Source: a virus | Virus record (IMG/VR): IMGVR_UViG_3300025789_000028 | Coordinates: 1-64,000 of that record | Direction: 5' to 3' (one strand) | Length of the DNA: 64,000 nt | In this document: positions 2,038 to 63,810 of the stretch, piece by piece | Numbering within the stretch: the first letter of the stretch is position 1 | Layout: the number at the start of each line of letters is the position of its first letter | The notes under the pieces: generated by a model | The model's input: the letters and a program-made list of their open reading frames with translations, nothing else | What the model was told of the DNA's origin: nothing | The model's database searches: none | Position numbers and translations under genes: made by a program

Positions 2038-2339
2038 GTAGAACACAACCAAAAGTATTATTAGAGTATGTAGAAAAGAATACATACAAGTGCGACCAGA
2101 TTGTAGAAGCATCTGGCATTTGGGCTGTATTCTATGAGGGCCAGCCAATTAATCTAAAGTCTTCACATTACCTACACAACGATGCTGCTCCTAAATATAA
2201 AAAGACTAGTTTTAGTAATCCAGGTCATGCTAGAAACCTATGTCGTAAGTTGAATGCACAATTCAAATCAGACAAATTTACAGTAGTCTTTATGAATTCG
2301 GGACGCACAGTTTATCCCGATGACTTATCACAAAACTAA
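2034..2339 (+). CDS. Unknown 101-residue protein
   Basis: Translation probably restarts at the ATGA overlap with the upstream gene. The protein has VEASGIWAVFYEGQPINLKS followed by a basic helix near RNLCRKLNAQFKSDKFTVVF. No known family is seen. Its 3' end overlaps the next gene by 20 bases. Confidence 0.6.
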   Translation: MSRTQPKVLLEYVEKNTYKCDQIVEASGIWAVFYEGQPINLKSSHYLHNDAAPKYKKTSFSNPGHARNLCRKLNAQFKSDKFTVVFMNSGRTVYPDDLSQN

Positions 2340-2727
2340 GTACGAAATAACTAACGCTATAATAAAAGAATTACCACATTCTCAATGGCATGAAATGCCC
2401 TTGGATGATGTGGTTTTCCGTTGGTGGGTCACTGGCAGAGGTGGAGAAGGATTGCGTTTATCTGATGAGGGTATGAATGCATTTTTGCAATCTAATATTG
2501 AATACTATGAATTTCCAATTGGTACTCTGTGGAATAAAAAGGATAAGTTTTTAAGACCTGAATTGATCACACATGAACTATCTAAGAAAATTAAGTGCCC
2601 GTTTTATTTGGGTGTAAATAAAAGTGGGGACAACAAAGGCCCCTACGTTAAACTATTTGACAGTAAAATAGCAATGGTTGTAACATTATATGGTAACTTA
2701 AAAGAGTACTTAGATTCCGTAAGATAG
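2320..2727 (+). CDS. Unknown 135-residue protein
   Basis: It starts inside the end of the previous gene. A Trp/Arg-rich segment near residues 25-45 (VVFRWWVTGRGGEGLRLSDEG) is the most distinctive part. The protein appears globular, with no signal peptide or membrane segment. It is the last gene before an SD-led small basic ORF. Confidence 0.65.
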   Translation: MTYHKTKYEITNAIIKELPHSQWHEMPLDDVVFRWWVTGRGGEGLRLSDEGMNAFLQSNIEYYEFPIGTLWNKKDKFLRPELITHELSKKIKCPFYLGVNKSGDNKGPYVKLFDSKIAMVVTLYGNLKEYLDSVR

Positions 2728-2905: not shown

Positions 2906-2941
2906 GTCAACAGGAATACAGTCTGAGGCGTTGTATATATA
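2906..2941 (+). promoter_or_regulatory. Conserved 36-base element, copy A
   Basis: The element reads GTCAACAGGAAT, four variable bases, TCTGAGGCGTT, then a TATATA-like end. A second copy lies at 63775-63810 on the minus strand with the same spacing. Each copy ends shortly upstream of a small gene with its own Shine-Dalgarno. A phage-specific promoter with a -10-like TATATA and an activator box is the simplest reading (inference). Confidence 0.55.
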
Positions 2942-2960: not shown

Positions 2961-2980
2961 ATAACTTAAAGGAAACTGAT

Positions 2981-3172
2981 ATGAAAACTCTAGCAACATT
3001 GATCGCAACATTGGTAACTGTAACTGCATTTGCCGCAGAAACTGTACCCGCTCCTGCTCCAGCACAACAAGAAATGAAATTGGCTAAGAAGGTGGATCAC
3101 ACCAAAAGCCAGCCTGCTAAAAGCAAGGCCCCTAGCAAAGATACCAAGAAAGCCGAAGCTACTAAGAAGTAA
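2981..3172 (+). CDS. Small exported Lys/Ala/Pro-rich protein
   Basis: 63 residues. The N-terminus MKTLATLIATLVTVTAFAAE is a clear Sec signal peptide with a likely AFA|AE cleavage site. The mature part is short, Ala/Pro-rich at first and then strongly basic (K-rich, ending KKAEATKK). An AAGGA Shine-Dalgarno supports the start. A role in the periplasm or envelope is implied, but no family is recognised. Confidence 0.7.
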   Translation: MKTLATLIATLVTVTAFAAETVPAPAPAQQEMKLAKKVDHTKSQPAKSKAPSKDTKKAEATKK

Positions 3173-4814: not shown

Positions 4815-4843
4815 TTGACAATAAATCCATAGTGTGTGATAAT
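4815..4843 (+). promoter_or_regulatory. Early-type promoter for the lipoprotein gene
   Basis: TTGACA, a 17-base spacer beginning ATAAAT, then GATAAT. It belongs to the recurrent early promoter family, but its -10 is buried in the inverted repeat 4823-4866. Confidence 0.65.
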
Positions 4844-4866
4844 AATAACATCACAACTATGGATTT
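4823..4866 (+). repeat. Long inverted repeat overlapping the -10 region and leader
   Basis: The left arm 4823-4840 and right arm 4850-4866 pair over 17 bp with a single one-base bulge around the loop AATAATAAC. The left arm covers the spacer and part of the -10. The right arm ends three bases before the ATG at 4870. This could be an operator for a dimeric repressor or a cruciform. Confidence 0.7.
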
Positions 4867-4869
4867 GCC

Positions 4870-6246
4870 ATGCGTACACTACTTTCATTAATTCTTGTTT
4901 CATTCTTAGTTGCCTGCGGTGGAGGGGGAGGTTCGTCTCCTGTCAATCCCACCCCAACTCCCACTCCGGTCCCAACTTGCACAGTTGACTACACGGCAAC
5001 GTATCCAAGTTCATATTTGGGTACTCACACAATGCCCACAGCAAGTGGTGTACTTCCCAGCATTTGGCAAAAGGGTATTGGCTTCAAAGACTATAGCCCA
5101 TATTGGATTTACGGTAATGCATTGAATAAAACGGCAATACACAATTGCACTGCCGATCAATATGCGCAGTTAATGTATACCCAAGCATTGGATAAACTTC
5201 AACAAGACGGTGTTACATTTACGTGGCTTTATAATTCCGGTCCTTGGGATGATGCTAGTGCATCTAATCTAACTATTAGTCCTGCTAATTATAATATTCC
5301 CGAATACATGGTTCAGTTTGTTGTAACTGAGGCAAAGAAACGAAATATTGACATTTATTATATTTGGCAACTTTGGCCCAATGACGTAAATGGTAACACA
5401 GTTGCCGCCTTAGAAAGTGCTCCTGATAATGCAACCATCACACGTATTATGCATGGTTGGGATACTCAAGCAATTGAAATGGCTAAATTTGCACAGACCT
5501 CAGGCATCAAGGGTATGATGGTTGATTGGAATGCATATGGGCTTAGTAATTTGGCTGATCCTATTATTCATGAGACATATGTAACCAATTTAAGTGCAAC
5601 TATTGACCATGTAAAGGCAAATTTTTCTGGTAAATTGTTTTATAGTCAAGGTGGTCGACCATGGAGTGATCCACGAATCGTAGACAAAGTTGATGCTATT
5701 GTTTTTAGTTTCATGAGTCCACACATGAATCAAGCTGACAATGCAAATCTGTCACCAGAACTTATTCAAAATTACATGAATATTCAACTAAATAATTTTT
5801 ATAGTTCATATCATTGTTTGGGTGCTAATACTGGTTCAATTACATGTGGTCCCAACGGTCCTTCAACCAAGCAAGTACCTATGTTATTTGACCTTGCAGT
5901 TCAATCTAACAGTTTGTATTGGTTAGAAGGCTGGCATGAGGATGGGTTCTGTGATTCTGTTGGTCCCAATGTCGTTACTAGTTTGTTGAGTGCAGATTCA
6001 ACACCACAAACATGTGTTGCATTGAATTGGTCTCCTGATTTTTCTAGTCAAGCAATTGGTGTTGAAGGCATTATGAGAACAATTTCTCAACAAACATTGT
6101 TTACTGTATATGGAGTTGGTCTGAGTTGCAGTTATTGGTTGAGTGACACACTTGTTCCAAGTGCACAGGGTTTTTCAGATTTAAGTGAAAGTATTCGTGG
6201 CAAGCCTGCAGAAGGTATTATTAAACATTGGTTTACAGGAAATTGA
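4870..6246 (+). CDS. Lipoprotein with a TIM-barrel, glycosidase-like ectodomain
   Basis: 458 residues. The N-terminus is a signal peptide with lipobox LVAC (Cys16), followed by a Gly/Ser/Pro/Thr linker. A predicted lipid anchor would tether the protein to a host membrane. The ectodomain has alternating strands and helices such as FTWLYNSGPW, IDIYYIWQLW, KGMMVDWNAYG and FYSQGGRPWSDP, a pattern seen in alpha/beta-barrel glycoside hydrolases. I cannot place it in a family or name catalytic acids. Its dedicated promoter sits in a striking inverted repeat. A role in surface-glycan remodelling or superinfection exclusion is inference. Confidence 0.65.
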   Translation: MRTLLSLILVSFLVACGGGGGSSPVNPTPTPTPVPTCTVDYTATYPSSYLGTHTMPTASGVLPSIWQKGIGFKDYSPYWIYGNALNKTAIHNCTADQYAQLMYTQALDKLQQDGVTFTWLYNSGPWDDASASNLTISPANYNIPEYMVQFVVTEAKKRNIDIYYIWQLWPNDVNGNTVAALESAPDNATITRIMHGWDTQAIEMAKFAQTSGIKGMMVDWNAYGLSNLADPIIHETYVTNLSATIDHVKANFSGKLFYSQGGRPWSDPRIVDKVDAIVFSFMSPHMNQADNANLSPELIQNYMNIQLNNFYSSYHCLGANTGSITCGPNGPSTKQVPMLFDLAVQSNSLYWLEGWHEDGFCDSVGPNVVTSLLSADSTPQTCVALNWSPDFSSQAIGVEGIMRTISQQTLFTVYGVGLSCSYWLSDTLVPSAQGFSDLSESIRGKPAEGIIKHWFTGN

Positions 6247-6247
6247 T

Positions 6248-6448
6248 ATGCGTAAAGGTGAAATGATTTTAATTAAAAGTGAGTCGGGTAAAGGTATTGA
6301 TTGCCCAATCATTGACGTAGAAGGCGATAAGATTTGGGTTAGATTCCCAACATCACAGGTAATAGAAATGACCTACAATTCTAAATCTAAAGTTTACGTA
6401 GGTAAATTAGCTAGGATCGAGTTTACGGCAAAACCAAATGACAGTTAA
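6248..6448 (+). CDS. Small beta-rich protein, 66 residues
   Basis: The chosen ATG directly follows the lipoprotein stop; an upstream in-frame start would overlap it by 62 bases. The sequence MRKGEMILIKSESGKGIDCP with later DKIWVRFPTSQVIEM looks like a small SH3- or Tudor-like barrel. No functional motif is visible. Confidence 0.6.
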   Translation: MRKGEMILIKSESGKGIDCPIIDVEGDKIWVRFPTSQVIEMTYNSKSKVYVGKLARIEFTAKPNDS

Positions 6449-6461
6449 ATAGGAGAAAGGA

Positions 6462-6611
6462 ATGTATTTTTTTAGAAGTGAGGTACTAGAGTTAGCACGT
6501 GAAGGATATAACCCATATAGCATTGCATGTATGTTAAGTATGCCAATTGATGATGTTTTCAAAATTCTCAATGAAGAATTTTCTGATGAAGACTATGAGG
6601 AGTTAGCATGA
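6462..6611 (+). CDS. Small helix-turn-helix-like protein, 49 residues
   Basis: An AGGAG-like Shine-Dalgarno precedes the ATG. The segment LELAREGYNPYSIACMLSMP followed by IDDVFKIL fits a helix-turn-helix (Gly/Asn turn between two helices). A similar 41-residue protein is at 63634. DNA binding is plausible but untested. The end overlaps the next start by ATGA. Confidence 0.55.
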   Translation: MYFFRSEVLELAREGYNPYSIACMLSMPIDDVFKILNEEFSDEDYEELA

Positions 6612-6823
6612 AAGTTGAAAGTTCTTTTTACAATTTGCAATTACAGCAACAAATATTGCATTGCAATAAAGTTTTTCAGGAACGTCTAGTAAATGACAGA
6701 GAAGGTGCTCAACGAGTTTTCCAAGATCAACAAGTTGAACAAATTCAATATGAGACTAGAATGCATTATAGTAGCGACAGTATCAAAGGCACCAAAGGCA
6801 CCAAAGTGGATGTAACAGTATGA
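6608..6823 (+). CDS. Unknown Gln-rich 71-residue protein
   Basis: Gln and Asn are abundant (LQLQQQILHC, DQQVEQIQYE), consistent with a coiled coil. A short KGTKGTK repeat lies near the C-terminus. It is coupled by ATGA to both neighbours. No family known. Confidence 0.6.
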   Translation: MKVESSFYNLQLQQQILHCNKVFQERLVNDREGAQRVFQDQQVEQIQYETRMHYSSDSIKGTKGTKVDVTV

Positions 6824-6996
6824 ACAACAATGAACTAAATACACTTATTACTCAAATTAATAATGCAGTTGAACGTATTAGCAATAATGCTACGCCTGAG
6901 GAAATTAGTAAAACGCTTAAGACAGTAGCGGCATTATGTACCCATCAGGCCAAAAAAGTTGATCGATATATCGAAGATACAAAGGAAGAAGATTAA
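6820..6996 (+). CDS. Unknown 58-residue helical protein
   Basis: MNNNELNTLITQINNAVERI onward, ending in an acidic tail. It is wholly helical in appearance. It starts at the ATGA of the previous gene, and the next gene begins at the base after its stop. Confidence 0.6.
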   Translation: MNNNELNTLITQINNAVERISNNATPEEISKTLKTVAALCTHQAKKVDRYIEDTKEED

Positions 6997-7581
6997 ATGG
7001 CAGCAATTTATAACATTTTAGCACGATCAGGGTCTAATGGGGAATTAATTCAAAAATTATTTTGGGAGTTTGGATTAAGTTGTGAATATAACATTCAACC
7101 AAATATTCCTAAAATTAAAAATGCGGTGGTAGTTACATATGGATATGATTTATTACCATATGTTATGACTAGTCATTTACTTGAAGTCGTAGGTGATGCA
7201 TATGCAGAAGGTAATAAAGAAGTATGGGACCAATTTAAAGAGCATTATAGTGGATCGGGTATATATGATAATCCAAACGATATCACACCAGAACATTGGG
7301 CTGAACATGTTAAAAATAGCATGAATTTTATAATTAGTAATTTTAATCTATTCAACGGTAATGCTGACAGCGTATTAGAATTAATAGAGGGTTACACTGG
7401 TCCCAAATATAATATTAAATTAGAAGATATATTAAATAATCCAGAATCCGTGTTAAAACAAATATCTGAGATTACTGATGAACCAATTCCAGACGGCGTA
7501 TTGGATTATTACAAAAAAGAACTGGAAACCCAACAACTTAGACTTGCTCCCTATCTAGAGGCCTATCAAAAAATTAGTTGA
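6997..7581 (+). CDS. Unknown 194-residue protein
   Basis: Mixed alpha/beta protein with AVVVTYGYDLLPYVMTSHLL near residues 43-65 and an acidic helical C-terminus. No catalytic signature is recognised. Its last codons overlap the -35 of the promoter at 7578, so transcription of the next gene is independent. Confidence 0.65.
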   Translation: MAAIYNILARSGSNGELIQKLFWEFGLSCEYNIQPNIPKIKNAVVVTYGYDLLPYVMTSHLLEVVGDAYAEGNKEVWDQFKEHYSGSGIYDNPNDITPEHWAEHVKNSMNFIISNFNLFNGNADSVLELIEGYTGPKYNIKLEDILNNPESVLKQISEITDEPIPDGVLDYYKKELETQQLRLAPYLEAYQKIS

Positions 7582-7606
7582 CAATAAATGGGTTTGGCGA
7601 TATACT
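7578..7606 (+). promoter_or_regulatory. Early-type promoter
   Basis: TTGACA, 17-base spacer beginning ATAAATGGGTTTGG, TATACT. The conserved downstream tract ATTGATTGATTAAAGGAG leads into the Shine-Dalgarno. Confidence 0.8.
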
Positions 7607-7636
7607 ACATGTATTGATTGATTAAAGGAGCGATAC

Positions 7637-7969
7637 ATGTTGACAGAAATTGAAACAAATCACAAACCCGCAGGTCAATTTGCTTGGTTCGCCGAGCGTG
7701 ATGCACGATTGCGTAGTGCAGTCAATAGTTCTCTTTACACCAATGAACAAAAAGTTCGTGCCGAACGTGTTAAGTTGGGTCTTGAATTGGTGTACAATGC
7801 TGAAAAAGTGTATGTTGAGTTTCGCAAAAAGTTCATTAGCGTTAAAGTCAACAAGCCCGTATTGAAGGACCGCAAGGGTCTTGCATTGTTAGAAATGACA
7901 TATAAAAACGAGGGTTTTGTGAAGTGCAAGACTTCACAGGGCTTTACATATCGGTTGTTCATGGCTTGA
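7637..7969 (+). CDS. Unknown basic 110-residue protein
   Basis: AAAGGAG precedes the ATG by 7 bases. The protein is Arg/Lys-rich, with FAWFAERDARLRSAV and EKVYVEFRKKFISVKVNKP segments. Charge suggests nucleic-acid contact, but no domain is recognised. Its own early promoter and short size mark it as an early host-takeover candidate. The stop overlaps the next -35 box. Confidence 0.65.
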   Translation: MLTEIETNHKPAGQFAWFAERDARLRSAVNSSLYTNEQKVRAERVKLGLELVYNAEKVYVEFRKKFISVKVNKPVLKDRKGLALLEMTYKNEGFVKCKTSQGFTYRLFMA

Positions 7970-7994
7970 CAATAAATGGGTTTGGGTATATAAT
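7966..7994 (+). promoter_or_regulatory. Early-type promoter
   Basis: TTGACA, 17-base spacer with TTTGGGTA before a consensus TATAAT. The -35 contains the stop codon of the upstream gene. Confidence 0.8.
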
Positions 7995-8022
7995 AGAATC
8001 TTAATCAGTTGAAAGGTATATT

Positions 8023-8232
8023 ATGTACGACATTGACAAATTTGTGAACACTAACAAAGCGAATGTAAGTTATGATGAAGAATCTGATGAGGTCCAGTGT
8101 GCTACTGAGTTTGAGAAACTAGTAAAGTTTGATGAAATCGATTCTAGCGCATACCCAGTGCTTGTTTATAAAATGAATGATAAAGTGGTAGCTTGGTACG
8201 ACATTGAAATGTTTATGGGCTATGCTCAATAA
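8023..8232 (+). CDS. Small acidic protein, 69 residues
   Basis: Strongly acidic (YDEESDEVQCATEFEKLVKF) with a hydrophobic C-terminus (WYDIEMFMGYAQ). It has its own early promoter and a weak GAAAGG Shine-Dalgarno. Acidic early peptides of phages often bind host enzymes or mimic DNA; for this one that is inference. Confidence 0.65.
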   Translation: MYDIDKFVNTNKANVSYDEESDEVQCATEFEKLVKFDEIDSSAYPVLVYKMNDKVVAWYDIEMFMGYAQ

Positions 8233-8233
8233 G

Positions 8234-8262
8234 TTGACAATAAATCGTTTTGGGCATATAAT
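8234..8262 (+). promoter_or_regulatory. Early-type promoter
   Basis: TTGACA, 17-base spacer with TTTTGGGCA, consensus TATAAT and the conserved ACTTGTATTGATTGATTAAA leader. Confidence 0.85.
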
Positions 8263-8291
8263 ACTTGTATTGATTGATTAAAGGAACAGAA

Positions 8292-8522
8292 ATGTTAAAC
8301 ATCAAAGCAGGCGATACGATTATGTACACTAGCGCAGCCGGCACACGCCCAGCAGTAGTAAACAGTATTACTATTGGTGCTACTGCAAAACCCAATCATT
8401 CTATTGCATGGTTGAATATTACTGTTCCCGCTGATATCAAACTTGGTCGCAGGTTTGATTCTAGTGTTAGCATCCCGGCTGATCCCAATTCACTGAAAAT
8501 GTTCAAGGTTACCAAAATTTGA
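8292..8522 (+). CDS. Small beta-rich protein, 76 residues
   Basis: The ATG at 8292 is chosen because AAAGGA lies 7-8 bases upstream; an in-frame ATG at 8274 precedes that Shine-Dalgarno. The protein MLNIKAGDTIMYTSAAGTRP onward looks like a small beta barrel. No family recognised. The stop codon lies in the next -35. Confidence 0.7.
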   Translation: MLNIKAGDTIMYTSAAGTRPAVVNSITIGATAKPNHSIAWLNITVPADIKLGRRFDSSVSIPADPNSLKMFKVTKI

Positions 8523-8547
8523 CAATAAATCATTTTGGGTATATAAT
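8519..8547 (+). promoter_or_regulatory. Early-type promoter
   Basis: TTGACA, 17-base spacer with TTTTGGGTA, TATAAT, and the conserved leader ending in AAAGGA. Confidence 0.85.
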
Positions 8548-8577
8548 ACTTGTATTGATTGATTAAAGGACTACAAA

Positions 8578-8799
8578 ATGGCTTTCGAAAAAATCGTTCT
8601 CGACAAAGTTGCTAAGGTACTCAAAGATGACAATCGTGCCGCATTTATCTGTGGTACTCTTTTTGTTGAATGTTCGGAAGTTGAGGCACGCAAGGTGTTT
8701 CACAAACTGAGCAAAGACTATGGTCTTGGTAAGGTTCAAGTCAGTGGCCCTATCAATGGTCCTGTAATGCCCGAGTTTGCATACGATTTTGTTGCTTAA
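8578..8799 (+). CDS. Unknown 73-residue alpha/beta protein
   Basis: MAFEKIVLDKVAKVLKDDNR leads into an AAFICGTLFVECSEVEARKV strand-helix unit; the size suggests a ferredoxin-like fold. No catalytic residues stand out. It is expressed from its own early promoter, and a GGAG-led gene follows 12 bases later. Confidence 0.65.
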   Translation: MAFEKIVLDKVAKVLKDDNRAAFICGTLFVECSEVEARKVFHKLSKDYGLGKVQVSGPINGPVMPEFAYDFVA

Positions 8800-8811
8800 G
8801 GAGTATTTGTA

Positions 8812-9585
8812 ATGGCTGGATTTGTTGATGTTAGTGGTATGACATATGAACAGGTTCGCCGCATGGGTCATGCTGACGATTGTGACGAACCTAAAACTTT
8901 CAACCGTAACCCTTACGCATATCGTAAGCCTGTAAAAAAGACGAATACGGTTGTTACCAGCTACAACGCTACTGATGTTTGGGCCGCGGCAGTAGCCAGT
9001 CAACGTATCAATGGTAGTTATGTTAAACTAAGTGTTATTTCTGAATCCGATCCTGATCTGACTAAAAAGTCTAATCGTATGCTTGTACAGGAACTGTTGT
9101 CTGATGCTTCACGTATCACCGATGAGGATCGTGAACAAGGTCTTAAGGTTCGTAGTTTCTTTCAAGGCTATACTTTTAAGGTACTTAAGGGTACCCGGTT
9201 GAGTGAATTTGACAACACAGCAATGTTACTTGCAAACAAGGAAACAATTGATAGTGCATACGATATTGCAGTTATCGCAAGTTTGCCATCAGTATATGAG
9301 CGTGGCATTGTACGCCAAACAGTAGAACAACGTGTTGCGTTTGCTACTGGTGGATTCATTGGCAATGTAAATGATAAGGTATCTACTGCAATTGAAGTAC
9401 TCAAGTCTGTATACTCAATGAAGTGGAACACACATTACATTACTGGTATTAATAGTGATGATCAGGTTGTGTTTTTTGCGTACAAGGAAGAACTGCCTGT
9501 AGGTAAGATGTTTGATATTTACTGTACTGTTAAAGCACATCGTGACAACAGCACCCAACTCAATCGTGTAAAGGTGATTGTATGA
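8812..9585 (+). CDS. Unknown 257-residue protein, possible OB-fold C-terminus
   Basis: The first 50 residues are basic and polar. The last 40 (PVGKMFDIYCTVKAHRDNST followed by QLNRVKV) resemble the closing strands of an OB-like domain seen in some phage DNA-binding proteins; this is a weak visual match. No signal peptide. It shares the transcript of the 8578 gene (GGAG Shine-Dalgarno) and overlaps the next small membrane peptide by ATGA. Confidence 0.6.
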   Translation: MAGFVDVSGMTYEQVRRMGHADDCDEPKTFNRNPYAYRKPVKKTNTVVTSYNATDVWAAAVASQRINGSYVKLSVISESDPDLTKKSNRMLVQELLSDASRITDEDREQGLKVRSFFQGYTFKVLKGTRLSEFDNTAMLLANKETIDSAYDIAVIASLPSVYERGIVRQTVEQRVAFATGGFIGNVNDKVSTAIEVLKSVYSMKWNTHYITGINSDDQVVFFAYKEELPVGKMFDIYCTVKAHRDNSTQLNRVKVIV

Positions 9586-9707
9586 ATTTTTTAACCGGTG
9601 TTATTGTAGGTATTATTGTTGCTACAGTAGGCTTTGGTGGCATCGCTAAAATAGCCGACAAAGGTGTGGACAAACTCAAAGAAGTTACTATTGAACAAAC
9701 ACGGTAA
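9582..9707 (+). CDS. Small membrane peptide, 41 residues
   Basis: MNFLTGVIVGIIVATVGFGG is one transmembrane helix with glycine spacing, followed by a charged tail (DKGVDKLKEVTIEQTR). It is translated by ATGA coupling. Such peptides are common early phage products. Confidence 0.6.
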   Translation: MNFLTGVIVGIIVATVGFGGIAKIADKGVDKLKEVTIEQTR

Positions 9708-9719
9708 TAGGATTATATA

Positions 9720-10079
9720 ATGGCAGGCTATAACGCAGTATTAGAATTTCGTAGGCTTGAAAAAGCCATAGACGACCTTGGCTTTATGCTTTGCGCACCT
9801 AAACATGGAAGTTGGGGGTCAGAGGACACCGGTGATAGAGTTGCAATCAAACCTAAGGATACAGACAGCTTACCTATTTACAGCCGTGATGCAGAAGTGT
9901 TTACAGGTACATTGGAACAACTACAAACATGGATTCGTGGTGTAGCCTGGGCCCGTGAATATGACATGATGCTAAAGTTGAGTGACGATAGAAAGCGACA
10001 ACGTAAAGAGCAGGATGCACGTAATCAGCAATTAGTCAGGATTCTAAAGAACGAAAAAGCGGAATATAAGGGTAATTAG
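9720..10079 (+). CDS. Unknown 119-residue protein with charged C-terminal helix
   Basis: The N-terminal half is globular (LEFRRLEKAIDDLGFMLCAP). The C-terminal third is a long charged helix (LSDDRKRQRKEQDARNQQLV), likely coiled coil. The last 44 bases overlap the minus-strand gene tail to tail. Confidence 0.65.
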   Translation: MAGYNAVLEFRRLEKAIDDLGFMLCAPKHGSWGSEDTGDRVAIKPKDTDSLPIYSRDAEVFTGTLEQLQTWIRGVAWAREYDMMLKLSDDRKRQRKEQDARNQQLVRILKNEKAEYKGN

Positions 10080-10917
10080 GATTTGTTTCATACAATGCTA
10101 AGTCAACATAATATGGATCAAGATTAAATTCATTTACCAATCTGTTATAGATGGTGTCTAAATGTGTTTTATCTAGGTAATGTCTTTTTGATATTACTAA
10201 TGATCCATATACTTTCGGATCAGCATCTTGTAATACATCAATGCAGGTGTCTAAATATTCTCTACGTATGGGTTCCATTCTTTTATAGAAAAATTCATAG
10301 GCAACAAATTCACTAGGCAGTCTATGTTTTACACTTGCTGTCTCTAGGAATATCTCCTCAACATTTACTGATGCTAATAACTGACGCACAGTTTCGGTAT
10401 CTAAAATAAAAGGGGTCGTAGGATATCTACACACCTTAGGAATAGGCAAATTTGTTTTGTTATGAAATATTTCAGCAAATTGTTTCCAAGTGTCCATGTC
10501 TGGATTAGACCAATTGCGATATATCATCATTGGTTCAAAGTTTAAAAAATTGTATATTGATCTAGTTTGTACTAAAAGATTTTTGCTATCAAATATAGTG
10601 TATTTGGGTGTATATATAACTTGAGAAACATATAGTTTTATGATTTGCTGTCTGAGCCAGCCGTTGTCTTTTACAAACTCTACACCATCCAATAGTGTAG
10701 GGAATACATATGGATGTGTTTCTTTGGTCATTAATACCAATTTATGTTTAACATAAATTTTTTGTAAATCAGATTTCCATTTGTTTATATCATGCTTTGT
10801 GGATTCTATGACAACAATATGTTGCACTGGCTCATCCAAATATTTTTCAAAACTATGTGCTTGTAGGTATAATTGATATCTATCTCTATCACAGGTAACG
10901 GTTACGATTGTTTCCAT
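10036..10917 (-). CDS. Probable DUF6492-like glycosyltransferase
   Basis: 293 residues from ATG at 10917. This start is preferred over an upstream in-frame one because METIVTVTCDRDRYQLYLQA is a clean Rossmann-like first strand, and an ATAAATA motif lies four bases upstream. The layout (VTCDRD, then HIVVIEST, YTPKYTIFDSKN and a His/Glu-rich C-terminus) resembles DUF6492 proteins, annotated as GT-A-like glycosyltransferases. The assignment is tentative. It is an isolated minus-strand gene, antisense to its neighbours. Confidence 0.5.
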   Translation of the reverse strand: METIVTVTCDRDRYQLYLQAHSFEKYLDEPVQHIVVIESTKHDINKWKSDLQKIYVKHKLVLMTKETHPYVFPTLLDGVEFVKDNGWLRQQIIKLYVSQVIYTPKYTIFDSKNLLVQTRSIYNFLNFEPMMIYRNWSNPDMDTWKQFAEIFHNKTNLPIPKVCRYPTTPFILDTETVRQLLASVNVEEIFLETASVKHRLPSEFVAYEFFYKRMEPIRREYLDTCIDVLQDADPKVYGSLVISKRHYLDKTHLDTIYNRLVNEFNLDPYYVDLALYETNPNYPYIPLFRSLES

Positions 10918-10921
10918 CACA

Positions 10922-10928
10922 TATTTAT
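10922..10928 (-). promoter_or_regulatory. Late-type ATAAATA motif
   Basis: ATAAATA on the minus strand, 4 bases before the ATG at 10917. A start at the usual late-promoter distance would give an mRNA with almost no leader. Confidence 0.5.
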
Positions 10929-10940
10929 TAGACAAAAGGC

Positions 10941-10969
10941 TTGACTTTAAATAGATTTTGTTGTATACT
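10941..10969 (+). promoter_or_regulatory. Sigma70-type promoter for DNA ligase
   Basis: TTGACT and TATACT are separated by 17 bases. AGGAG at 10988-10992 follows, supporting the ATG at 11000. Confidence 0.7.
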
Positions 10970-10999
10970 GTTATTAATACGGTTAATAGGAGTTGATGA

Positions 11000-12346
11000 A
11001 TGAGTGCAAGTTGGATTAATAAACTAAACGAAAGTGACAGTCGCCTACACAAGGAAGATGTTATTCGTCAGGCGCTTGAGGCAAGTGTCCTTGGTAGTAG
11101 TAATTCTATTAACTTCCTTTCATTTGTGAAGGCATGTTACAATCCTTATCTAACATTTGGGGTGCGTCAAATTCCTGACACCATTGGCATCATCGATGCT
11201 GAGAATCCTTGGGAAGACTTCAATGAACTTATGATTCAACTGGGACAACGTAGGTTGTCAGGTCATGCCGCACGTGATGCAATTGATGAATTAAGCCAGC
11301 GTTTTGATAGTAATGAATGGAACACATTCTTAGCTCCAGTACTGCGCCGTGACTTACGTGCAGGTGTTAGTGAAAAAACTATTAACAAAATCTGCAAAGG
11401 TACTGACTATGAGATTCCAGTGTTCGGTTGCCAACTAGCAACCAATAGCGAAGGTCGTCCTGAAATGAAAGGTGTCAAACGTCTTGAGCCTAAACTAGAC
11501 GGTGTTCGTGCATTGTTTGTTGTTATCCCTAGCGACTTTGGTGTCACTACTATTTGCTATAGCCGTAATGGTAAAGTGTTTGAAAACTTTAGTCACATTG
11601 AAGAACAAATTCAATCTGCATATACAAAGATTTGCCGTTCGGCATCACGTGTTGATCAAGGTCGTAGTCTTGTTGATGGCTTTGTATTTGATGGTGAAGT
11701 AATTGGCAATACATTTCAAGAACTTATGCGTCAGGCTCGCCGTAAAGAAAATGCACAAGCAGAGGATAGCGTGTTCAATGTGTTTGATGTTATCCCGTTG
11801 GCTGACTTCCGTCGAGGTTATTGGAATGCACAATTACATAAGCGTATTAATATCCTTGAATCTATTCGAGGTATTATTGATGAATTGCCTAATGTTGAAT
11901 TGCTACCGCACTTGATGGTTGACTTGGATACATCAGAAGGCAAAGACCAACTTGATCGTTATGCTAAAGATCAGGTTAACGCAGGCTTTGAAGGTATCAT
12001 GATTAAAAACGTTGATGCACCTTACGAGTGCAAACGCAGTACATCATGGATGAAGTTTAAGCCTGTTTATGACTATGACCTGACCGTAATCGGTGTTGAA
12101 GAAGGTACCGGTAAGAATCAAGGTCGCATGGGCGCTTTAGTGTGCGAGGGCATTGATGACGGTAAGCATATCACAGTCAATGTTGGTAGTGGTTATACGG
12201 ATGTAGAACGACAATCATACTGGGATGACAAGGAAAGTGTTATTGGTCAGACTGCGGTGGTGATGGCTGACGCTGTTACTCAGAATCAAGACGGGTCATA
12301 TAGCCTACGATTCCCTAGATTCAAGACTTTCCGTGACGATAAGTGA
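11000..12346 (+). CDS. ATP-dependent DNA ligase
   Basis: Seals nicks in duplex DNA through an enzyme-AMP intermediate, in phage replication and repair. 448 residues. Motif I is EPKLDGVR with the AMP-accepting Lys165; motif III is FVFDGEVI (about 228-235); motif IV is EGIMIK (331-336); motif V is WMKFKP (350-355). An OB-type domain follows. The N-terminal 150 residues match the helical region of T4-type ligases. An alternative ATG at 10996 gives only a 7-codon frame, so 11000 is used. Confidence 0.93.
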   Translation: MSASWINKLNESDSRLHKEDVIRQALEASVLGSSNSINFLSFVKACYNPYLTFGVRQIPDTIGIIDAENPWEDFNELMIQLGQRRLSGHAARDAIDELSQRFDSNEWNTFLAPVLRRDLRAGVSEKTINKICKGTDYEIPVFGCQLATNSEGRPEMKGVKRLEPKLDGVRALFVVIPSDFGVTTICYSRNGKVFENFSHIEEQIQSAYTKICRSASRVDQGRSLVDGFVFDGEVIGNTFQELMRQARRKENAQAEDSVFNVFDVIPLADFRRGYWNAQLHKRINILESIRGIIDELPNVELLPHLMVDLDTSEGKDQLDRYAKDQVNAGFEGIMIKNVDAPYECKRSTSWMKFKPVYDYDLTVIGVEEGTGKNQGRMGALVCEGIDDGKHITVNVGSGYTDVERQSYWDDKESVIGQTAVVMADAVTQNQDGSYSLRFPRFKTFRDDK

Positions 12347-12418
12347 TTTACAGTTATCAAAGTGCCAACGAACCATCGCTGATTTGCCACCAGTAGCATT
12401 ACAATGTGGACATGACAC
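12305..12418 (-). pseudogene. Remnant zinc-finger module, antisense to the ligase end
   Basis: A 37-codon minus-strand frame from GTG encodes VSCPHCNATGGKSAMVRWHF followed by DNCKSL. The pattern CPHC..GG..AM.RWHFDNC is a known zinc-finger module of phage homing endonucleases. Only the module survives, running into the 3' end of the ligase gene antisense. It is best explained as a relic of a decayed mobile endonuclease. No promoter or Shine-Dalgarno is seen. Confidence 0.55.
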
Positions 12419-12437
12419 AATTATTTATGCCAAATAC

Positions 12438-12466
12438 TTGACAATAAATAAATTTGGTGCTATACT
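12438..12466 (+). promoter_or_regulatory. Early-type promoter for the MNER-family cluster
   Basis: TTGACA, 17-base spacer ATAAATAAATTTGGTGC, TATACT, then an AGGAG Shine-Dalgarno before 12497. Confidence 0.8.
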
Positions 12467-12496
12467 ATAGTCATAGTAACAAAACAGGAGTTCAAC

Positions 12497-12685
12497 ATGA
12501 ACGAACGAATCGCAAAACTATATGACCAAGCAACCATTTTAGAAGGCAATGGCGACTACGTGGCAGGTGAGTTGGATCCTGTAAAGTTCGCCGAATTGAT
12601 TGTTCGGGAATGTATTGATACTGCCTTTCATAAAGGTCATCCCGATTTAGAATTTTTGTTGAAACATTTCGGAGTTACAGAATGA
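12497..12685 (+). CDS. Small protein of the MNER(I/L)..FAELIV..HFG family, copy 3
   Basis: 62 residues: MNERIAKLYDQATI, then KFAELIVRECIDTAF, ending KHFGVTE. It is the first gene after an early promoter, so this cluster is probably expressed early. It overlaps the next copy by ATGA. Confidence 0.8.
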   Translation: MNERIAKLYDQATILEGNGDYVAGELDPVKFAELIVRECIDTAFHKGHPDLEFLLKHFGVTE

Positions 12686-12909
12686 ACAAACGAATTGTGA
12701 GACTTATTGACCAAATGGATCAATCGGGTATTCCATATCAGGCTGGCGATAACTTAATGACGATCACAGACAGATACTTGGAAAAGTTCGCCGAGTTGAT
12801 TGTTAGGGAAATGTTAGATATTTTTGATAAACGTGCCGAACCAGGTACAGGTTTTTATGAACCGCAAGAACCTGCTGAGATGATTCGACAACATTTTGGA
12901 GTTGAATGA
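12682..12909 (+). CDS. Small protein of the same family, copy 4
   Basis: 75 residues: MNKRIVRLIDQMDQ, then KFAELIVREMLDIFD, ending RQHFGVE. The usual MNER start is MNKR here and the Cys after REC is replaced by Met, so it is a diverged tandem copy. Confidence 0.8.
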   Translation: MNKRIVRLIDQMDQSGIPYQAGDNLMTITDRYLEKFAELIVREMLDIFDKRAEPGTGFYEPQEPAEMIRQHFGVE

Positions 12910-13121
12910 TGACCAATCAAGAACTTGTTGATACACTGAACACAGCCAGTGAAAGTGCTGGTGGCAATATTGCCCTGTCCATGCTTTTGAAAATTGCCGC
13001 AGACCGTATTCTAGAATTGGATGACCGATGTGATGAATTGGCCGCAGACAAAGGTACTTATTTTAGGTTATATGAAGCATTGTGTATTAAAGTTGAATCA
13101 GACAAGAGGGCAAAAGAATGA
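12906..13121 (+). CDS. Unknown 71-residue helical protein
   Basis: Two adjacent ATGs (12906, 12909) are possible starts. The protein is acidic and helical (LLKIAADRILELDDRCDELA), likely a short coiled coil. It lies between two MNER-family genes but is not a member. Confidence 0.65.
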   Translation: MMTNQELVDTLNTASESAGGNIALSMLLKIAADRILELDDRCDELAADKGTYFRLYEALCIKVESDKRAKE

Positions 13122-13330
13122 ACGAACGAATTAAAGAACTTGCTGAACAGGCTGGTGGAGAATTTTATGAAGGATTTGCTGGAGGTACGAACTTTGTCAA
13201 ATTTGCAGAAGATGATTTTGAAAAGTTCGCCGGGTTGCTTGTTAGGGAATGTGCCGTAATGACTCGCAATCTATCAGCACACGGCGAACTTGCTGAAAAG
13301 GCAGTTAAAGAACATTTCGGAGTTAAATAA
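13118..13330 (+). CDS. Small protein of the MNER(I/L)..FAELIV..HFG family, copy 5
   Basis: 70 residues: MNERIKELAEQAGGEFYEGF, then KFAGLLVRECAVMTR, ending KEHFGVK. It is the last gene before tRNA-Phe. The FAEL block is FAGL here, showing divergence among copies. Confidence 0.8.
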   Translation: MNERIKELAEQAGGEFYEGFAGGTNFVKFAEDDFEKFAGLLVRECAVMTRNLSAHGELAEKAVKEHFGVK

Positions 13331-13335
13331 ATTAT

Positions 13336-13408
13336 ACCCCGGTAGCTCAGATGGTAGAGCAGAGGATTGAAAATCCTTGTGTCGGTGGTTCAACTCCATC
13401 CCGGGTGA
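13336..13408 (+). tRNA. tRNA-Phe (GAA)
   Basis: A cloverleaf can be drawn: D-stem GCTC/GAGC, anticodon loop TTGAAAA, T-stem GGTGG/CCATC with loop TTCAACT. The acceptor pairs well at positions 3-7, but the first two pairs mismatch (A-G and C-T), which is odd. CC rather than full CCA follows. It is the only plus-strand tRNA here. Confidence 0.8.
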
Positions 13409-13427
13409 CCTTTAATAAAGATAAATG

Positions 13428-13529
13428 ATGAGCAATGACCGATTTTTTTATGGATGTATACTAGCATTATTTTTGGTGATGGCTGGTCATCCTATACTGG
13501 CATTTCTCCTATTTCTTTGCGTACTATAA
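13428..13529 (+). CDS. Small hydrophobic peptide, 33 residues
   Basis: MSNDRFFYGCILALFLVMAG followed by HPILAFLLFLCVL is almost entirely membrane-like. There is no clear Shine-Dalgarno, and the frame lies between tRNA-Phe and the next promoter, so expression is uncertain. Confidence 0.4.
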   Translation: MSNDRFFYGCILALFLVMAGHPILAFLLFLCVL

Positions 13530-13545
13530 TATTTTATAGTATAAT
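13517..13545 (+). promoter_or_regulatory. Promoter with a palindromic spacer
   Basis: TTGCGT, 17-base spacer, TATAAT. Positions 13523-13540 form a perfect inverted repeat, ACTATAA and TTATAGT around TATT, nearly filling the spacer. This may be a repressor or activator site. Confidence 0.55.
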
Positions 13546-13564
13546 ATAATTTTAAGGAACAGTT

Positions 13565-14242
13565 ATGGTAACTTTGGTTAAACACGAATGGCATCAAGTA
13601 GATAGCCAGTTTGCTTATGAACTTGATATGGATACTCTTGCGCAGATTTATCCTGACATGAAGAAACGTGAACTCAAGGCGTTGATGAAACAAATTGAAA
13701 AGGGTGAATACGATATTGATGATTTGCTTAATGATGCATACGACAATGATGTAGAAATTGAATGGGAACGTCAGTATGATGATTGGTGGACTGATCGTAA
13801 GGGTGGATATGATGTTACATATGAATTAGGTAATGAAGATAGTTGGCATAATGAATCTCCTCCAACTGAACCAACACACAAATGTACAAAGTGTAAGTGG
13901 ATTGGTCAACGATATCAAACAATTACACAACATTTACGTGAAGATGGCACAGTAATTGAAGATTACTATTCCTCTGAAGAAATTTCAACTAGTACAAAAG
14001 ATGTTTGCCCTATGTGTGATAGTGAACTCAAATTGACTGAAGAGGGTATCAAGGAAGAACAAGAACGACTAGAACGTGAAGCACAATGGGCTAAATGGGA
14101 AGCAGACAATCTTGAAGTTAATGACGATAACGAACAAGAAGTTGTCGATGCCATTGCAGAACTAGAAACTGCATTTGCAGAACTTGACAAAGCCATTGAA
14201 ATAGAAAAGAAAGTCAAGAAAGTTAAAAAGACTAAAAAATGA
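13565..14242 (+). CDS. Zinc-ribbon protein with charged C-terminal coiled coil
   Basis: 225 residues. The N-terminal 95 residues are acidic with many Trp/Asp (YDDWWTDRKGGYD). A CTKCKW..(about 40 residues)..CPMC pair forms a four-Cys zinc ribbon in the middle. The C-terminus is a long Glu-rich coiled coil ending in a Lys tail (KKVKKVKKTKK). AAGGA precedes the start. Function unknown. It overlaps the next gene by ATGA and probably co-expresses with the proteostasis block. Confidence 0.7.
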   Translation: MVTLVKHEWHQVDSQFAYELDMDTLAQIYPDMKKRELKALMKQIEKGEYDIDDLLNDAYDNDVEIEWERQYDDWWTDRKGGYDVTYELGNEDSWHNESPPTEPTHKCTKCKWIGQRYQTITQHLREDGTVIEDYYSSEEISTSTKDVCPMCDSELKLTEEGIKEEQERLEREAQWAKWEADNLEVNDDNEQEVVDAIAELETAFAELDKAIEIEKKVKKVKKTKK

Positions 14243-14508
14243 CAGATGATGAAGAAATGAACTTACTGATCCAGCGTGACAAAGAATATGTTGCTGGTGA
14301 AAGTGCAAAGTATTTAGGTAAAAAATACACGTTTCCTGATGGGAACTATATTGAAGTAATTCAAATCAAAAGTCGTGGCCCTGGACAAAACTATATCACG
14401 TACCACATCAAGCAAGGCCCTGGCATTGATAGAAAATTGATTATACCTTTATCAGAGTTTGGTGGAACGTATGGACATTTGTTTCAGGGAAACGCGGAGA
14501 AAAAGTAA
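14239..14508 (+). CDS. Unknown 89-residue protein
   Basis: Starts at the ATGA overlap. Composition suggests a small beta barrel (KKYTFPDGNYIEVIQIKSRG). No motif recognised. It ends just before the membrane-protein gene. Confidence 0.65.
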   Translation: MTDDEEMNLLIQRDKEYVAGESAKYLGKKYTFPDGNYIEVIQIKSRGPGQNYITYHIKQGPGIDRKLIIPLSEFGGTYGHLFQGNAEKK

Positions 14509-14514
14509 TAAATA
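14508..14514 (+). promoter_or_regulatory. Late-type ATAAATA motif
   Basis: ATAAATA begins at the stop codon of the preceding gene and ends 4 bases before ATG 14519. No Shine-Dalgarno is present. Confidence 0.45.
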
Positions 14515-14518
14515 TAAC

Positions 14519-16165
14519 ATGTCCACTCTAAAAAAGATATTCAGTTTATCAACACTTACACTAGCAGTAGCACTTACATTAAGTGTTATTGCCGCCTGGT
14601 ATAGTATCCAAGGCTTGGTAGCAATTTTCGCCGCGGCGGTTGTTCCCATTATGATCATGGGAGGCTCATTGGAGTTTGCCAAAGTTGTGACTACATTGTG
14701 GCTGCATACCTATTGGAATCGTGCATCAATATTACTACGATTATATCTAGTGCCTGCGGTCGTGTTTTTAGCACTACTAACAAGCATGGGTATCTTTGGA
14801 TTTTTAAGTAAAGCACATAGTGATCAAAGTTTAGTTAGTGGTGATGTCGCTGCCAAACTTGCAATCTACGATGAAAAGATTAAAACTGAAAAAGATAATA
14901 TTGAAACTGCACGTAAAGCCTTGCAACAAATGGATGCACAGGTTGATGCTAGATTAAGTCGTAGTGACGATGATAAGGGCGCCGAACGTGCGGTTGCCAT
15001 TCGTAAGCAACAAGCAAAAGAACGTGCAGACTTACAGAAAACTATCAGCGATTCACAAAATAAGATTTCACAAATAAATGAAGAACGTGCTCCGGTTGCG
15101 GCTGAAAATCGTAAGGTCGAGGCTGAAGTAGGTCCTATCAAATACATTGCCGCATTAATCTATGGTGATAATCCAGACAGTAGTTTACTTGAACGTGCTG
15201 TGCGTTGGGTTATTATATTGATTGTGTTTGTATTTGACCCACTAGCACTTACCCTTGTGTTGGCAAGTACATCAAGTTATGAATGGATGAATGAAGAAGA
15301 AACAAAGGTTGAAGAACCTAAAGTTGAAACTGACCCAGAACTTGAAGAGTTTGAAAAAGCATTTGATGAGGGTTTTGAGGATGAACCCACAGTAGAAGAA
15401 ATAGTGGAAGAAGTAGAAGACGAACCTATTCTTTGCTATAAGTGTAATACACCATTACTTAACGCTCCGGGTATAGGACCATTCTGTCCTAACAAGTCAT
15501 GTGACGTTATCGATGGTCCTTTTATGGAGGAAGAAAATGTTACAGATGTACAAACAACTATTGTTGAACCAAATGGAGTGGTGGGAGAAGAATTACCAGA
15601 ACAAGATACTACCCATGCAGACGAACCTAATGTGGACGATGTTCACAGAGTGGAGCCAATTGAAAACGAAATTACAGAAGTAATTACTACTGATGCAGAA
15701 ATTACAATTGATCAAGTTGAGCCAATTAAAGAATTGCCCCCACAGCCTGAAATTAGAACTGAAGGTGTTACACTAGAAGAAGTACACGAAGGTTATGTGC
15801 AGTTTGAAGGTAAGTCAATTACCAAACATGCATTACAAGAAATGCGTCCTGATTTATTCAGATTGTCATTGACTGATGGACATCCTGTAAGCACAAACTT
15901 TGGAACACAATTCCCTAAGTTTGCTGAAAAAGGAAGTATCTTTGTACGTGTAGATGTTTTACCTAATCGTGTTTACAAGTTTGATGGTAGTAGATGGATA
16001 GAGACAAATAAAGATCAAAGTGATTCATACCTATATGATGAACACTACATACAACATTTAATTCATAAAATTGACACTGGTGAATACGATATTGAATTGC
16101 TTTCTGAAAAAGAAAAAGCACAAATCGAATCATATTTGAGCGAACAAAATTCGCAAGATAAGTAA
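14519..16165 (+). CDS. Multi-pass membrane protein with coiled coil and acidic cytoplasmic tail
   Basis: 548 residues from ATG 14519; an upstream in-frame start would bury the gene in its neighbour. Three membrane segments lie in the first 105 residues (LAVALTLSVIAAWYSIQG, LVAIFAAAVVPIMIMGG, LYLVPAVVFLALLTSMGIFG). A coiled coil of about 110 residues follows, then a fourth segment (WVIILIVFVFDPLALTLVLA). The rest is acidic, contains a CYKC..CPNKSC four-Cys cluster and ends with a globular part. The topology resembles a family I recall from T4-like phages; its role is unknown. It directly precedes ClpX. Confidence 0.7.
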   Translation: MSTLKKIFSLSTLTLAVALTLSVIAAWYSIQGLVAIFAAAVVPIMIMGGSLEFAKVVTTLWLHTYWNRASILLRLYLVPAVVFLALLTSMGIFGFLSKAHSDQSLVSGDVAAKLAIYDEKIKTEKDNIETARKALQQMDAQVDARLSRSDDDKGAERAVAIRKQQAKERADLQKTISDSQNKISQINEERAPVAAENRKVEAEVGPIKYIAALIYGDNPDSSLLERAVRWVIILIVFVFDPLALTLVLASTSSYEWMNEEETKVEEPKVETDPELEEFEKAFDEGFEDEPTVEEIVEEVEDEPILCYKCNTPLLNAPGIGPFCPNKSCDVIDGPFMEEENVTDVQTTIVEPNGVVGEELPEQDTTHADEPNVDDVHRVEPIENEITEVITTDAEITIDQVEPIKELPPQPEIRTEGVTLEEVHEGYVQFEGKSITKHALQEMRPDLFRLSLTDGHPVSTNFGTQFPKFAEKGSIFVRVDVLPNRVYKFDGSRWIETNKDQSDSYLYDEHYIQHLIHKIDTGEYDIELLSEKEKAQIESYLSEQNSQDK

Positions 16166-16169
16166 TAGT

Positions 16170-17369: not shown

Positions 17370-17587
17370 AATCATTCGGTAGAAAAGTATTAGTACAAGA
17401 CGGTAATTTTGAAAAAGCACTACGCAAACTAAAGAAAAAAGTTACAGAGTCTAATTTGCTTCAAGAAGTGCGTGACCGTGAAGCATACGTTAAACCAACC
17501 ACAAAAAGAAAAATCGCAAAGAGCCAAGCCAAGAGCCGTTGGCGCAAACATATTCGTTCACAAGAACTTCCACCCAAACTATTTTGA
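17366..17587 (+). CDS. rpsU: Ribosomal protein bS21
   Basis: bS21 sits on the small subunit near the anti-Shine-Dalgarno end of 16S rRNA and takes part in initiation. 73 residues, matching the family: FEKALRKLKKKVTESNLLQE, then VRDREAYVKPTTKRKIAKSQ, and a basic C-terminal tail ending PKLF. The hallmark RDREAYVKPTTKRK is equivalent to the bacterial RRREFYEKPT block. It is translationally coupled to ClpX by ATGA. bS21 genes are known in some large aquatic phages, where they may replace the host copy on ribosomes. Confidence 0.92.
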   Translation: MKSFGRKVLVQDGNFEKALRKLKKKVTESNLLQEVRDREAYVKPTTKRKIAKSQAKSRWRKHIRSQELPPKLF

Positions 17588-17618
17588 CCAAAATAGTTTA
17601 TTTTTTTGCGTAATAGTG

Positions 17619-17624
17619 TATAAT
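17619..17624 (+). promoter_or_regulatory. Promoter -10 of the hsp20 gene
   Basis: TATAAT is followed by AAATA. No good -35 sits 17 bases upstream, only a T tract and TTTGCGTA, which also precedes the promoter at 13540. The overlapping TATAATAAATA could also serve late transcription. Confidence 0.5.
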
Positions 17625-17632
17625 AAATAATG

Positions 17633-17660
17633 TTGTAGATGCCGATAGTCGGGTCTACAA
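17633..17660 (+). promoter_or_regulatory. Stem-loop at the 5' end of the hsp20 leader
   Basis: TTGTAGA (17633-17639) pairs with TCTACAA (17654-17660), and the stem continues with CCGA/TCGG around a TAG loop with one bulged G. It would start within 1-3 bases of the predicted transcription start. The Shine-Dalgarno (AGGAG near 17680) lies outside it. Confidence 0.55.
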
Positions 17661-17689
17661 TAGTCATATTTGCTTATAGGAGAAATAAA

Positions 17690-18145: not shown

Positions 18146-18160
18146 TATAATGTAAGAACA

Positions 18161-18190
18161 GTTCGCGGTGTACTACCGCGAACTTATAAC
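18161..18190 (+). terminator. Strong stem-loop after hsp20
   Basis: GTTCGCGGT and ACCGCGAAC pair over 9 bp around GTACT. The following tract is only weakly T-rich (TTATAACTCT), so it may be a partial terminator or an mRNA-stabilising processing hairpin. Confidence 0.55.
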
Positions 18191-18207
18191 TCTAGGAAAT
18201 ATTTAAC

Positions 18208-19583: not shown

Positions 19584-19602
19584 TTTTTATCTCCTAAAAA
19601 TA

Positions 19603-19610
19603 TATTTATA
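19603..19610 (-). promoter_or_regulatory. Late-type TATAAATA promoter
   Basis: A perfect T4-type late motif on the minus strand, with a leader carrying AGGAG before ATG 19583. Confidence 0.6.
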
Positions 19611-19621
19611 TCCAAAAGTAA

Positions 19622-19651
19622 TTGACACAATAATTTAATAACCTATATACT
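19622..19651 (+). promoter_or_regulatory. Sigma70-type promoter for SprT
   Basis: TTGACA, 18-base spacer, TATACT, followed by AAGGAAGGG before the start at 19676. Confidence 0.6.
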
Positions 19652-63433: not shown

Positions 63434-63475
63434 CGGAATAAACTACGACTGTATATTAAGTTAATGTGACAATGG

Positions 63476-63546
63476 TACCCAGTAGAGGTAACGCTCCTCT
63501 GTCGCACGATTATCAGTCGTGTGCTCTACTTTTGAGCTAACCGGGT
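63476..63546 (-). tRNA. tRNA-Ile (GAU) with atypical T-loop
   Basis: Acceptor ACCCGGT/ACTGGGT, D-stem GCTC/GAGC, anticodon stem CACGA/TCGTG with loop CTGATAA, T-stem AGAGG/CCTCT. The T-loop is AGCGTTA in place of the near-universal TTC-containing loop. Discriminator A, CCA encoded. Confidence 0.8.
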
Positions 63547-63555
63547 AAATTTTGG

Positions 63556-63630
63556 AGGTGCGAGTCAGATTTGAACTGACGGTTTTACGGATTTGCAATC
63601 CGTTGCATTGGACCACTCTGCCACCGCACC
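63556..63630 (-). tRNA. tRNA-Cys (GCA)
   Basis: Acceptor GGTGCGG/TCGCACC, anticodon stem ACGGA/TCCGT with loop TTGCAAA, T-stem GTCAG/CTGAC with loop TTCAAAT. Discriminator U, as expected for Cys; CCA encoded. Confidence 0.9.
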
Positions 63631-63633
63631 GTG

Positions 63634-63759
63634 TTAATGATTTAGTTTTGCTATTGCGCCCAAAACACAATGAATGTCTAAATGCAGTCTATGAGCAATT
63701 TCAGTTGCGTCTAGATGCCTATCTAATAACTCTTTAACTTGCATTACGATGTATGACAT
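63634..63759 (-). CDS. Small helix-turn-helix-like protein, 41 residues
   Basis: MSYIVMQVKELLDRHLDATE then IAHRLHLDIHCVLGAIAKLN. LLDRHLDATEIAHRLHLDIH fits a helix-turn-helix. GGGAG lies upstream and the conserved 36-base element (copy B) precedes it. It resembles the 49-residue protein at 6462 in plan. Confidence 0.6.
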   Translation of the reverse strand: MSYIVMQVKELLDRHLDATEIAHRLHLDIHCVLGAIAKLNH

Positions 63760-63774
63760 AGAATCTCCCGTCTA

Positions 63775-63810
63775 TACATATATAACGCCTCAGAAGTCAT
63801 TCCTGTTGAC
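63775..63810 (-). promoter_or_regulatory. Conserved 36-base element, copy B
   Basis: Minus-strand GTCAACAGGAAT, four variable bases, TCTGAGGCGTT, then ATATATG. It matches copy A at 2906 in both blocks and in spacing, 16 bases before the small HTH gene. Confidence 0.55.

Follow-up and report, generated by a model that had tools for sequence, protein, structure and literature searches.

A candidate third promoter class of uncultured phages with the core sequence of an ECF sigma factor promoter

What reads a short two-block element that recurs ahead of small genes in an uncultured phage? We analyzed a stretch of 64,000 nucleotides (here, the window) from IMG/VR record IMGVR_UViG_3300025789_000028, in which a preliminary description had noted two copies of such an element and had proposed a third promoter class with its own activator. 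Below we ask whether the element is a promoter, where transcription would start and which factor would recognize it.

RESULTS

Two copies of a two-block element differ from the early and late promoters of the phage

The 92,059-base record as a whole contains exactly two occurrences of the pattern GTCAACAGGAAT-N4-TCTGAGGCGTT-(A/G)TATAT (Table 1). Neither block carries a mismatch in either copy: the two-block part reads GTCAACAGGAATACAGTCTGAGGCGTT in copy 1 (2906-2932, plus strand) and GTCAACAGGAATGACTTCTGAGGCGTT in copy 2 (63810-63784), which lies on the minus strand, a detail absent from the preliminary description. The gap between the blocks is four bases in both copies, with different letters (ACAG and GACT). 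When up to three mismatches were allowed, the two-block pattern gave 2 matches in the window versus 0 in 100 shuffles. With exact blocks and no match in shuffled sequence, the shared element with its equal gap is confirmed as described, and so is its placement: behind each copy come TATAT, then a Shine-Dalgarno sequence and finally a small open reading frame, which encodes 63 amino acids for copy 1 and 41 for copy 2.

The early promoter family of this phage has the form TTGACAATAAAT...TATAATA (at 7577, 7965, 8233 and other positions). Neither copy of the element contains this signature or the late signature TATAAATA, in agreement with the earlier view that it belongs to neither family. The strong early promoters (TTGACAATAAAT-N-TATAATA) form a large family, located in the window at 4815-24650 (plus strand) and 51464-54732 (minus strand), and often share a further downstream block, TGTATTGATTGATTAAAGGA.

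TABLE 1 Features of the two element copies and their surroundings (window coordinates)
Feature	Position	Strand	Basis or remark
Element copy 1	2906-2941	+	
Element copy 2	63775-63810	-	
Putative -35 element GTCAAC, copy 1	2906..2911	+	Sequence; invariant in relatives, partly by construction
Putative -10 element CGTT, copy 1, 17 bp after GTCAAC	2929..2932	+	
RTATATA, AT-rich, read as putative discriminator/melting region, copy 1	2933..2939	+	
Predicted transcription start, copy 1 (A, element position 36)	2941	+	Y35/R36 signature, hairpin start
Predicted 5'-terminal stem-loop of leader, 8-bp stem and 6-nt loop	2940..2961	+	L001, z = -2.3
Shine-Dalgarno AAAGGA, copy 1	2968..2973	+	Sequence
Putative -35 element GTCAAC, copy 2	63805..63810	-	
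Putative -10 element CGTT, copy 2	63784..63787	-	
ATATATG, AT-rich stretch after putative -10, copy 2	63777..63783	-	
Predicted transcription start, copy 2	63775	-	As for copy 1
Shine-Dalgarno GGGAG, copy 2	63765..63769	-	Sequence
Copy-1 gene, 63-aa Lys/Ala-rich protein, signal-peptide-like N terminus	2981..3172	+	Orthologues behind element in relatives
Copy-2 gene, 41-aa helix-turn-helix protein MSYIVMQVKELLDRHLDATEIAHRLHLDIHCVLGAIAKLNH	63634..63759	-	
tRNA-Cys and tRNA-Ile, directly downstream of copy-2 gene	63473..63630	-	
135-aa gene, upstream, syntenic	2320..2727	+	Query for motif-independent fetch of relatives

The element is kept upstream of the same small genes in divergent phages

The full exact two-block motif gave no matches in the viral-contig or genome-contig collections, since the sequence that separates GTCAAC from GCGTT varies. 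A relaxed pattern recovered 12 viral contigs, in 11 of which the element stands directly before a relative of a window gene. These relatives reveal a core narrower than the two blocks, GTCAAC-N16-GCGTT-R-TATATA (that is, GTCAAC-N17-CGTT-RTATATA), and a scan of IMG/VR with this core matched at least 120 contigs. Among the matches listed, 71 non-redundant copies remained once near-duplicates were removed, and a recognizable small gene lies close downstream in 66 of these 71; the distance from TATATA to the ATG is 14 to 56 bases in nearly all copies listed, with one gene assigned at 146. Conservation of RTATATA equals that of the core, in part because the search pattern demanded it, and only a mild A/T preference is seen upstream of GTCAAC (71 copies listed). 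Whole records that bear the element carry one to four copies, a number compatible with a small regulon; a 525-kb record has two further copies, with ACGTT replacing GCGTT, before His-rich genes.

Relatives fetched independently of the motif gave the same association. The protein encoded at 2320-2727 retrieved 32 loci, several of them close copies of one another; a perfect element is present in all 13 loci that carry the secreted-protein gene and in none of the 19 that lack it. For relatives of the helix-turn-helix (HTH) protein, also fetched by protein sequence, GTCAAC-N17-CGTT was found in 8 of 34 distinct upstream regions, and one-base variants of the -35 hexamer with the N17 spacing kept occur upstream of the HTH gene in L310 (GACAAC) and L312 (GTAAAC). 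When gaps of 6 to 28 bases were scanned in 31 records, many but not all of which had been fetched with the motif itself, the gap was 17 in 20 of 20 matches.

The motif search that the preliminary description had suggested for the full genome and related phages thus yielded no third copy in the record and many copies in relatives. Because the record is a fragment and relatives too have only one to four copies each, the lack of a third copy does not literally count as a refutation. The proposal of a third promoter class of this phage is well supported by the comparisons: many divergent phages keep the element, always oriented alike and a short distance ahead of a recurring small set of genes, and it is distinct from the early and late classes.

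Four kinds of small gene follow the element

The genes behind the element encode secreted Lys/Ala-rich proteins, HTH proteins of 41 to 46 amino acids, secreted His-rich proteins and Cys-rich "PGKNE" proteins. The secreted Ala/Lys-rich family has the pattern MKxxATLIATxFAATAFAAEPAK...MKLAKKK, and no family was assigned to it in a family search; weak matches, among them one to the acid-shock protein Asr, are far below the cut-off and probably compositional. Structure prediction gave the HTH family a model of three helices (pLDDT 92), which aligns structurally with DNA-binding domains of the LuxR/GerE type and related ones with a TM score of about 0.85 by query length, at E-values above 0.2. On this model, DNA binding by the small HTH protein is plausible.

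The copy-2 HTH gene lies within a tRNA cluster (63473-63915: tRNA-Ser, HTH gene, tRNA-Cys, tRNA-Ile), and the two tRNA genes behind it are possibly cotranscribed with it. Larger tRNA arrays enclose the HTH gene in L208, L304 and L305.

Elsewhere, the window encodes a near-complete set for Clp proteolysis, with a ClpX-like ATPase (16170-17369), a ClpS-like adaptor recognized by eye (18208-18522), the ClpP protease (22733-23329) and an S8 subtilase (57251-59014). It also carries tandem paralogous small open reading frames (MNERI...KFAELIV) in two clusters about 12 kb apart (112-850 and 12497-13330). In a related record, L003:13897-15015 (minus strand) holds an S-adenosylmethionine-synthetase-like gene (by eye) that falls in a PHROG of unknown function.

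The core is identical to that of a mapped ECF sigma factor promoter

SigAb, an ECF sigma factor of Acinetobacter baumannii, recognizes a -35 element GTCAAC and a -10 element CGTT separated by a 17-bp spacer (Bacon et al. 2025, PMC12153292). That motif was defined by point mutagenesis, with the promoter start mapped by 5' RACE; a spacing of 17 bp is used and 16 is tolerated (PMC12153292). The phage and SigAb cores agree at each of the ten defined bases and in spacer length, and both window copies have GTCAAC followed at 17 bp by CGTT. ECF promoters are bipartite and need a near-consensus sequence, and the direct regulon of SigAb is very small (PMC12153292); the phage element fits on each of these counts.

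We therefore propose, with a probability of roughly 0.7, that the third promoter class is read by an ECF sigma factor, probably one of the host. The activator postulated in the preliminary description is not the best reading, since the blocks and spacer equal those of a mapped ECF promoter and the start predicted below fits.

Leader hairpins and Shine-Dalgarno positions suggest a start shortly after CGTT

Among the 71 copies listed, element position 35 is C or T in 90% and position 36 is A or G in 90%. A start at position 36 would put GTCAAC at -35 to -30 and CGTT at -12 to -9. In genes with long leaders, a hairpin whose first pair falls at positions 35 to 37 is found in 39 of 39 cases versus 17% of dinucleotide shuffles. 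The arms of these hairpins comprise 23 different five-base pairs, nearly all fully complementary; because the arms vary yet stay complementary, it is the pairing and not the sequence that is kept. In genes with short leaders, the distance from TATATA to the beginning of the Shine-Dalgarno sequence can be as short as 3 to 6 nt. From these positions we predict transcription to start at element position 36, about 8 to 9 nt after CGTT.

These leaders also bear on an activator-dependent sigma70 promoter in the style of T4 middle promoters, in which a phage activator would bind GTCAAC and/or GCGTT and TATATA would serve as the -10 element. TATATA is near-invariant and equals TATAAT at four of six positions, T4-type phages do replace the -35 element by an activator box (PMC2988021), and the HTH protein of the regulon could itself be the activator. 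However, sigma70 would start 7 bases past TATATA, at about position 41, which falls inside the 5' arm of the hairpin kept in all 39 long leaders and within or after the Shine-Dalgarno sequence of the short ones; such a start cuts the hairpin in the former and the Shine-Dalgarno sequence in the latter. Both sets of positions thus argue against TATATA as an ordinary sigma70 -10 element, whereas CGTT as the -10 element satisfies both.

Under the activator model, it would also be a coincidence that both blocks and their spacing are those of a mapped ECF promoter, and no MotA box, (a/t)(a/t)(a/t)TGCTTtA at 12 +/- 1 bp from the -10, is present in either copy. The MotA-box pattern matches twice in the record, both times at sites that do not precede a called gene. 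The strongest case that an activator can replace the -35 contact is made by one group of HTH-gene promoters (for example L271-L302, upstream of 1501), in which GGCTAAGGCGTTRTATATA is kept and CTAGCT replaces GTCAAC; a palindrome, AGAGCAA-N-TTGCTCT, lies just upstream. Among the records of the group covered by the search, none has an exact GTCAAC copy. This exchange of GTCAAC for a palindrome with GCGTTRTATATA kept would not be predicted for an ECF sigma factor that needs both halves of its promoter. On balance we regard the activator as unlikely. At several of these loci a tRNA-Met/Arg/Leu cluster then follows.

The same leaders speak to a function other than that of a promoter, either as a post-transcriptional element (5' untranslated region structure) or as a DNA site bound by a repressor or by a replication protein. 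One class of genes does have a hairpin after the element, and the element holds a weak inverted repeat of AACG and CGTT. The hairpin, however, begins after the element, the short-leader classes have no hairpin and leaders too short for one, and the orientation and gene distance are promoter-like. Nor is the inverted repeat preserved: variation occurs at position 7 although position 24 is fixed, and AACG/CGTT was rejected as a kept palindrome on this ground. We consider either role very improbable. LexA-, CRP- and FNR-like and palindromic operator readings were examined by eye and discarded; L005 lacks the CAG-N9-CTG that the window copies have.

Sixteen phage records have no sigma factor domain above the Pfam cut-off

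If the class is read by an ECF sigma factor, the factor could be encoded by host or phage. In 16 records from phages that carry the element or are related (this phage and 15 others, including records of 171, 168, 139 and 525 kb), no Pfam sigma70 region 2 or region 4 match exceeded the cut-off, while control genomes gave sigma-domain matches in the same search. The sigma factor is most likely the host's, because none of the 16 phage records contains an above-cut-off sigma domain.

T4 gp55-like sigma factors often escape Pfam sigma70 models. A highly diverged phage-encoded factor reading the ECF-type promoter could have escaped in the same way, and the records are fragments, so its gene may lie outside them. 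The negative domain search with positive controls weighs against a phage factor, as does a -35 hexamer equal to that of a cellular ECF sigma factor, and we hold this origin to be more doubtful still than an activator. The T7-type single-subunit polymerase model PF00940 gave no match in the 16 records, nor in the control genomes.

Searches bearing on the host returned no matches: a stricter element pattern had none in the genome-contig collection, none of 50,697 phage records contained a relative of the neighboring proteins, and no cultured relative was found by DNA in the phage collection. L004:3931-6240 (minus strand) encodes ribonucleotide reductase, whose NrdA is nearest that of Xanthomonas phage X1 at 60% identity, a match too weak to serve as a host clue.

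DISCUSSION

In the mechanism we favor, sigma region 4 would bind GTCAAC as the -35 element and region 2 would bind CGTT, after a 17-bp spacer, as the -10 element, with the AT-rich RTATATA running up to a start at position 36 (2941 on the plus strand, 63775 on the minus strand). This low-copy class would operate beside the sigma70-like early and TATAAATA late promoters. The regulon that it switches on would be very small, comprising one secreted basic protein, one small HTH protein and perhaps the tRNAs that follow the HTH gene. The sigma factor would come from the host, where envelope stress, metal stress or infection would probably release it.

There is perhaps an even chance that a large group of uncultured freshwater phages places a mini-regulon under a host ECF stress sigma factor and thereby senses the envelope or metal stress response of the host and adjusts its infection program. 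If so, the mini-regulon would consist of secreted basic, His-rich and Cys-rich proteins and a tiny HTH regulator, and its promoters would form a third class in addition to early and late ones of the T4 type. In the literature searched, we found no phage promoter class that exactly copies an ECF sigma factor promoter and recurs in dozens of lineages before the same few genes. The GTCAAC-N17-CGTT signature could also help to match an uncultured phage with hosts that have an ECF sigma factor of this specificity.

Among known systems, the closest are the SigAb promoters (PsigAb, PrelA and PsabS), which have the same -35 element, -10 element and spacer and form a very small regulon. They differ in driving cellular genes (sigAb, relA and the sRNA sabS) where the element would drive phage genes, and RTATATA is not reported in the SigAb motif (PMC12153292). 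SigAb is reported to be Acinetobacter-specific (PMC12153292), and nothing in this analysis ties the element-bearing phages to Acinetobacter; what we propose for the element is a SigAb-like specificity, not SigAb itself.

EcfG-type promoters in alphaproteobacteria have the form GGAAC-N16/17-CGTT. The SigX promoter of B. subtilis reads TGTAAC / CGWC (quoted in PMC12153292). The phage element shares with these types a -35 element containing AAC, a spacing of 16 to 17 bp and a CGTT/CGWC -10 element, but its -35 element opens with GTC rather than GG or TGT, and its setting is a phage. The neisserial sigmaE promoter, a betaproteobacterial ECF promoter, differs (GTMAGBWTT / CGTCTAAH), and by eye the element does not match the sigma54, sigma32, sigma28 or E. 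coli sigmaE consensus.

T4 middle promoters combine a MotA box, in place of the -35 element, with a sigma70 -10 element (PMC2988021). Like them, the element represents a distinct phage promoter class without a sigma70 -35; unlike them, it has no TGCTTtA box, no 12-bp spacing from box to -10 and no usable sigma70 -10 at the predicted start. Control of phage genes by a host two-component system is already known from the Pho boxes of cyanophages, which use the host PhoBR (PMC10976474). The element would likewise place phage genes under a host stress regulator, but Pho boxes are response-regulator sites, whereas the phage element would be of the alternative sigma factor promoter type.
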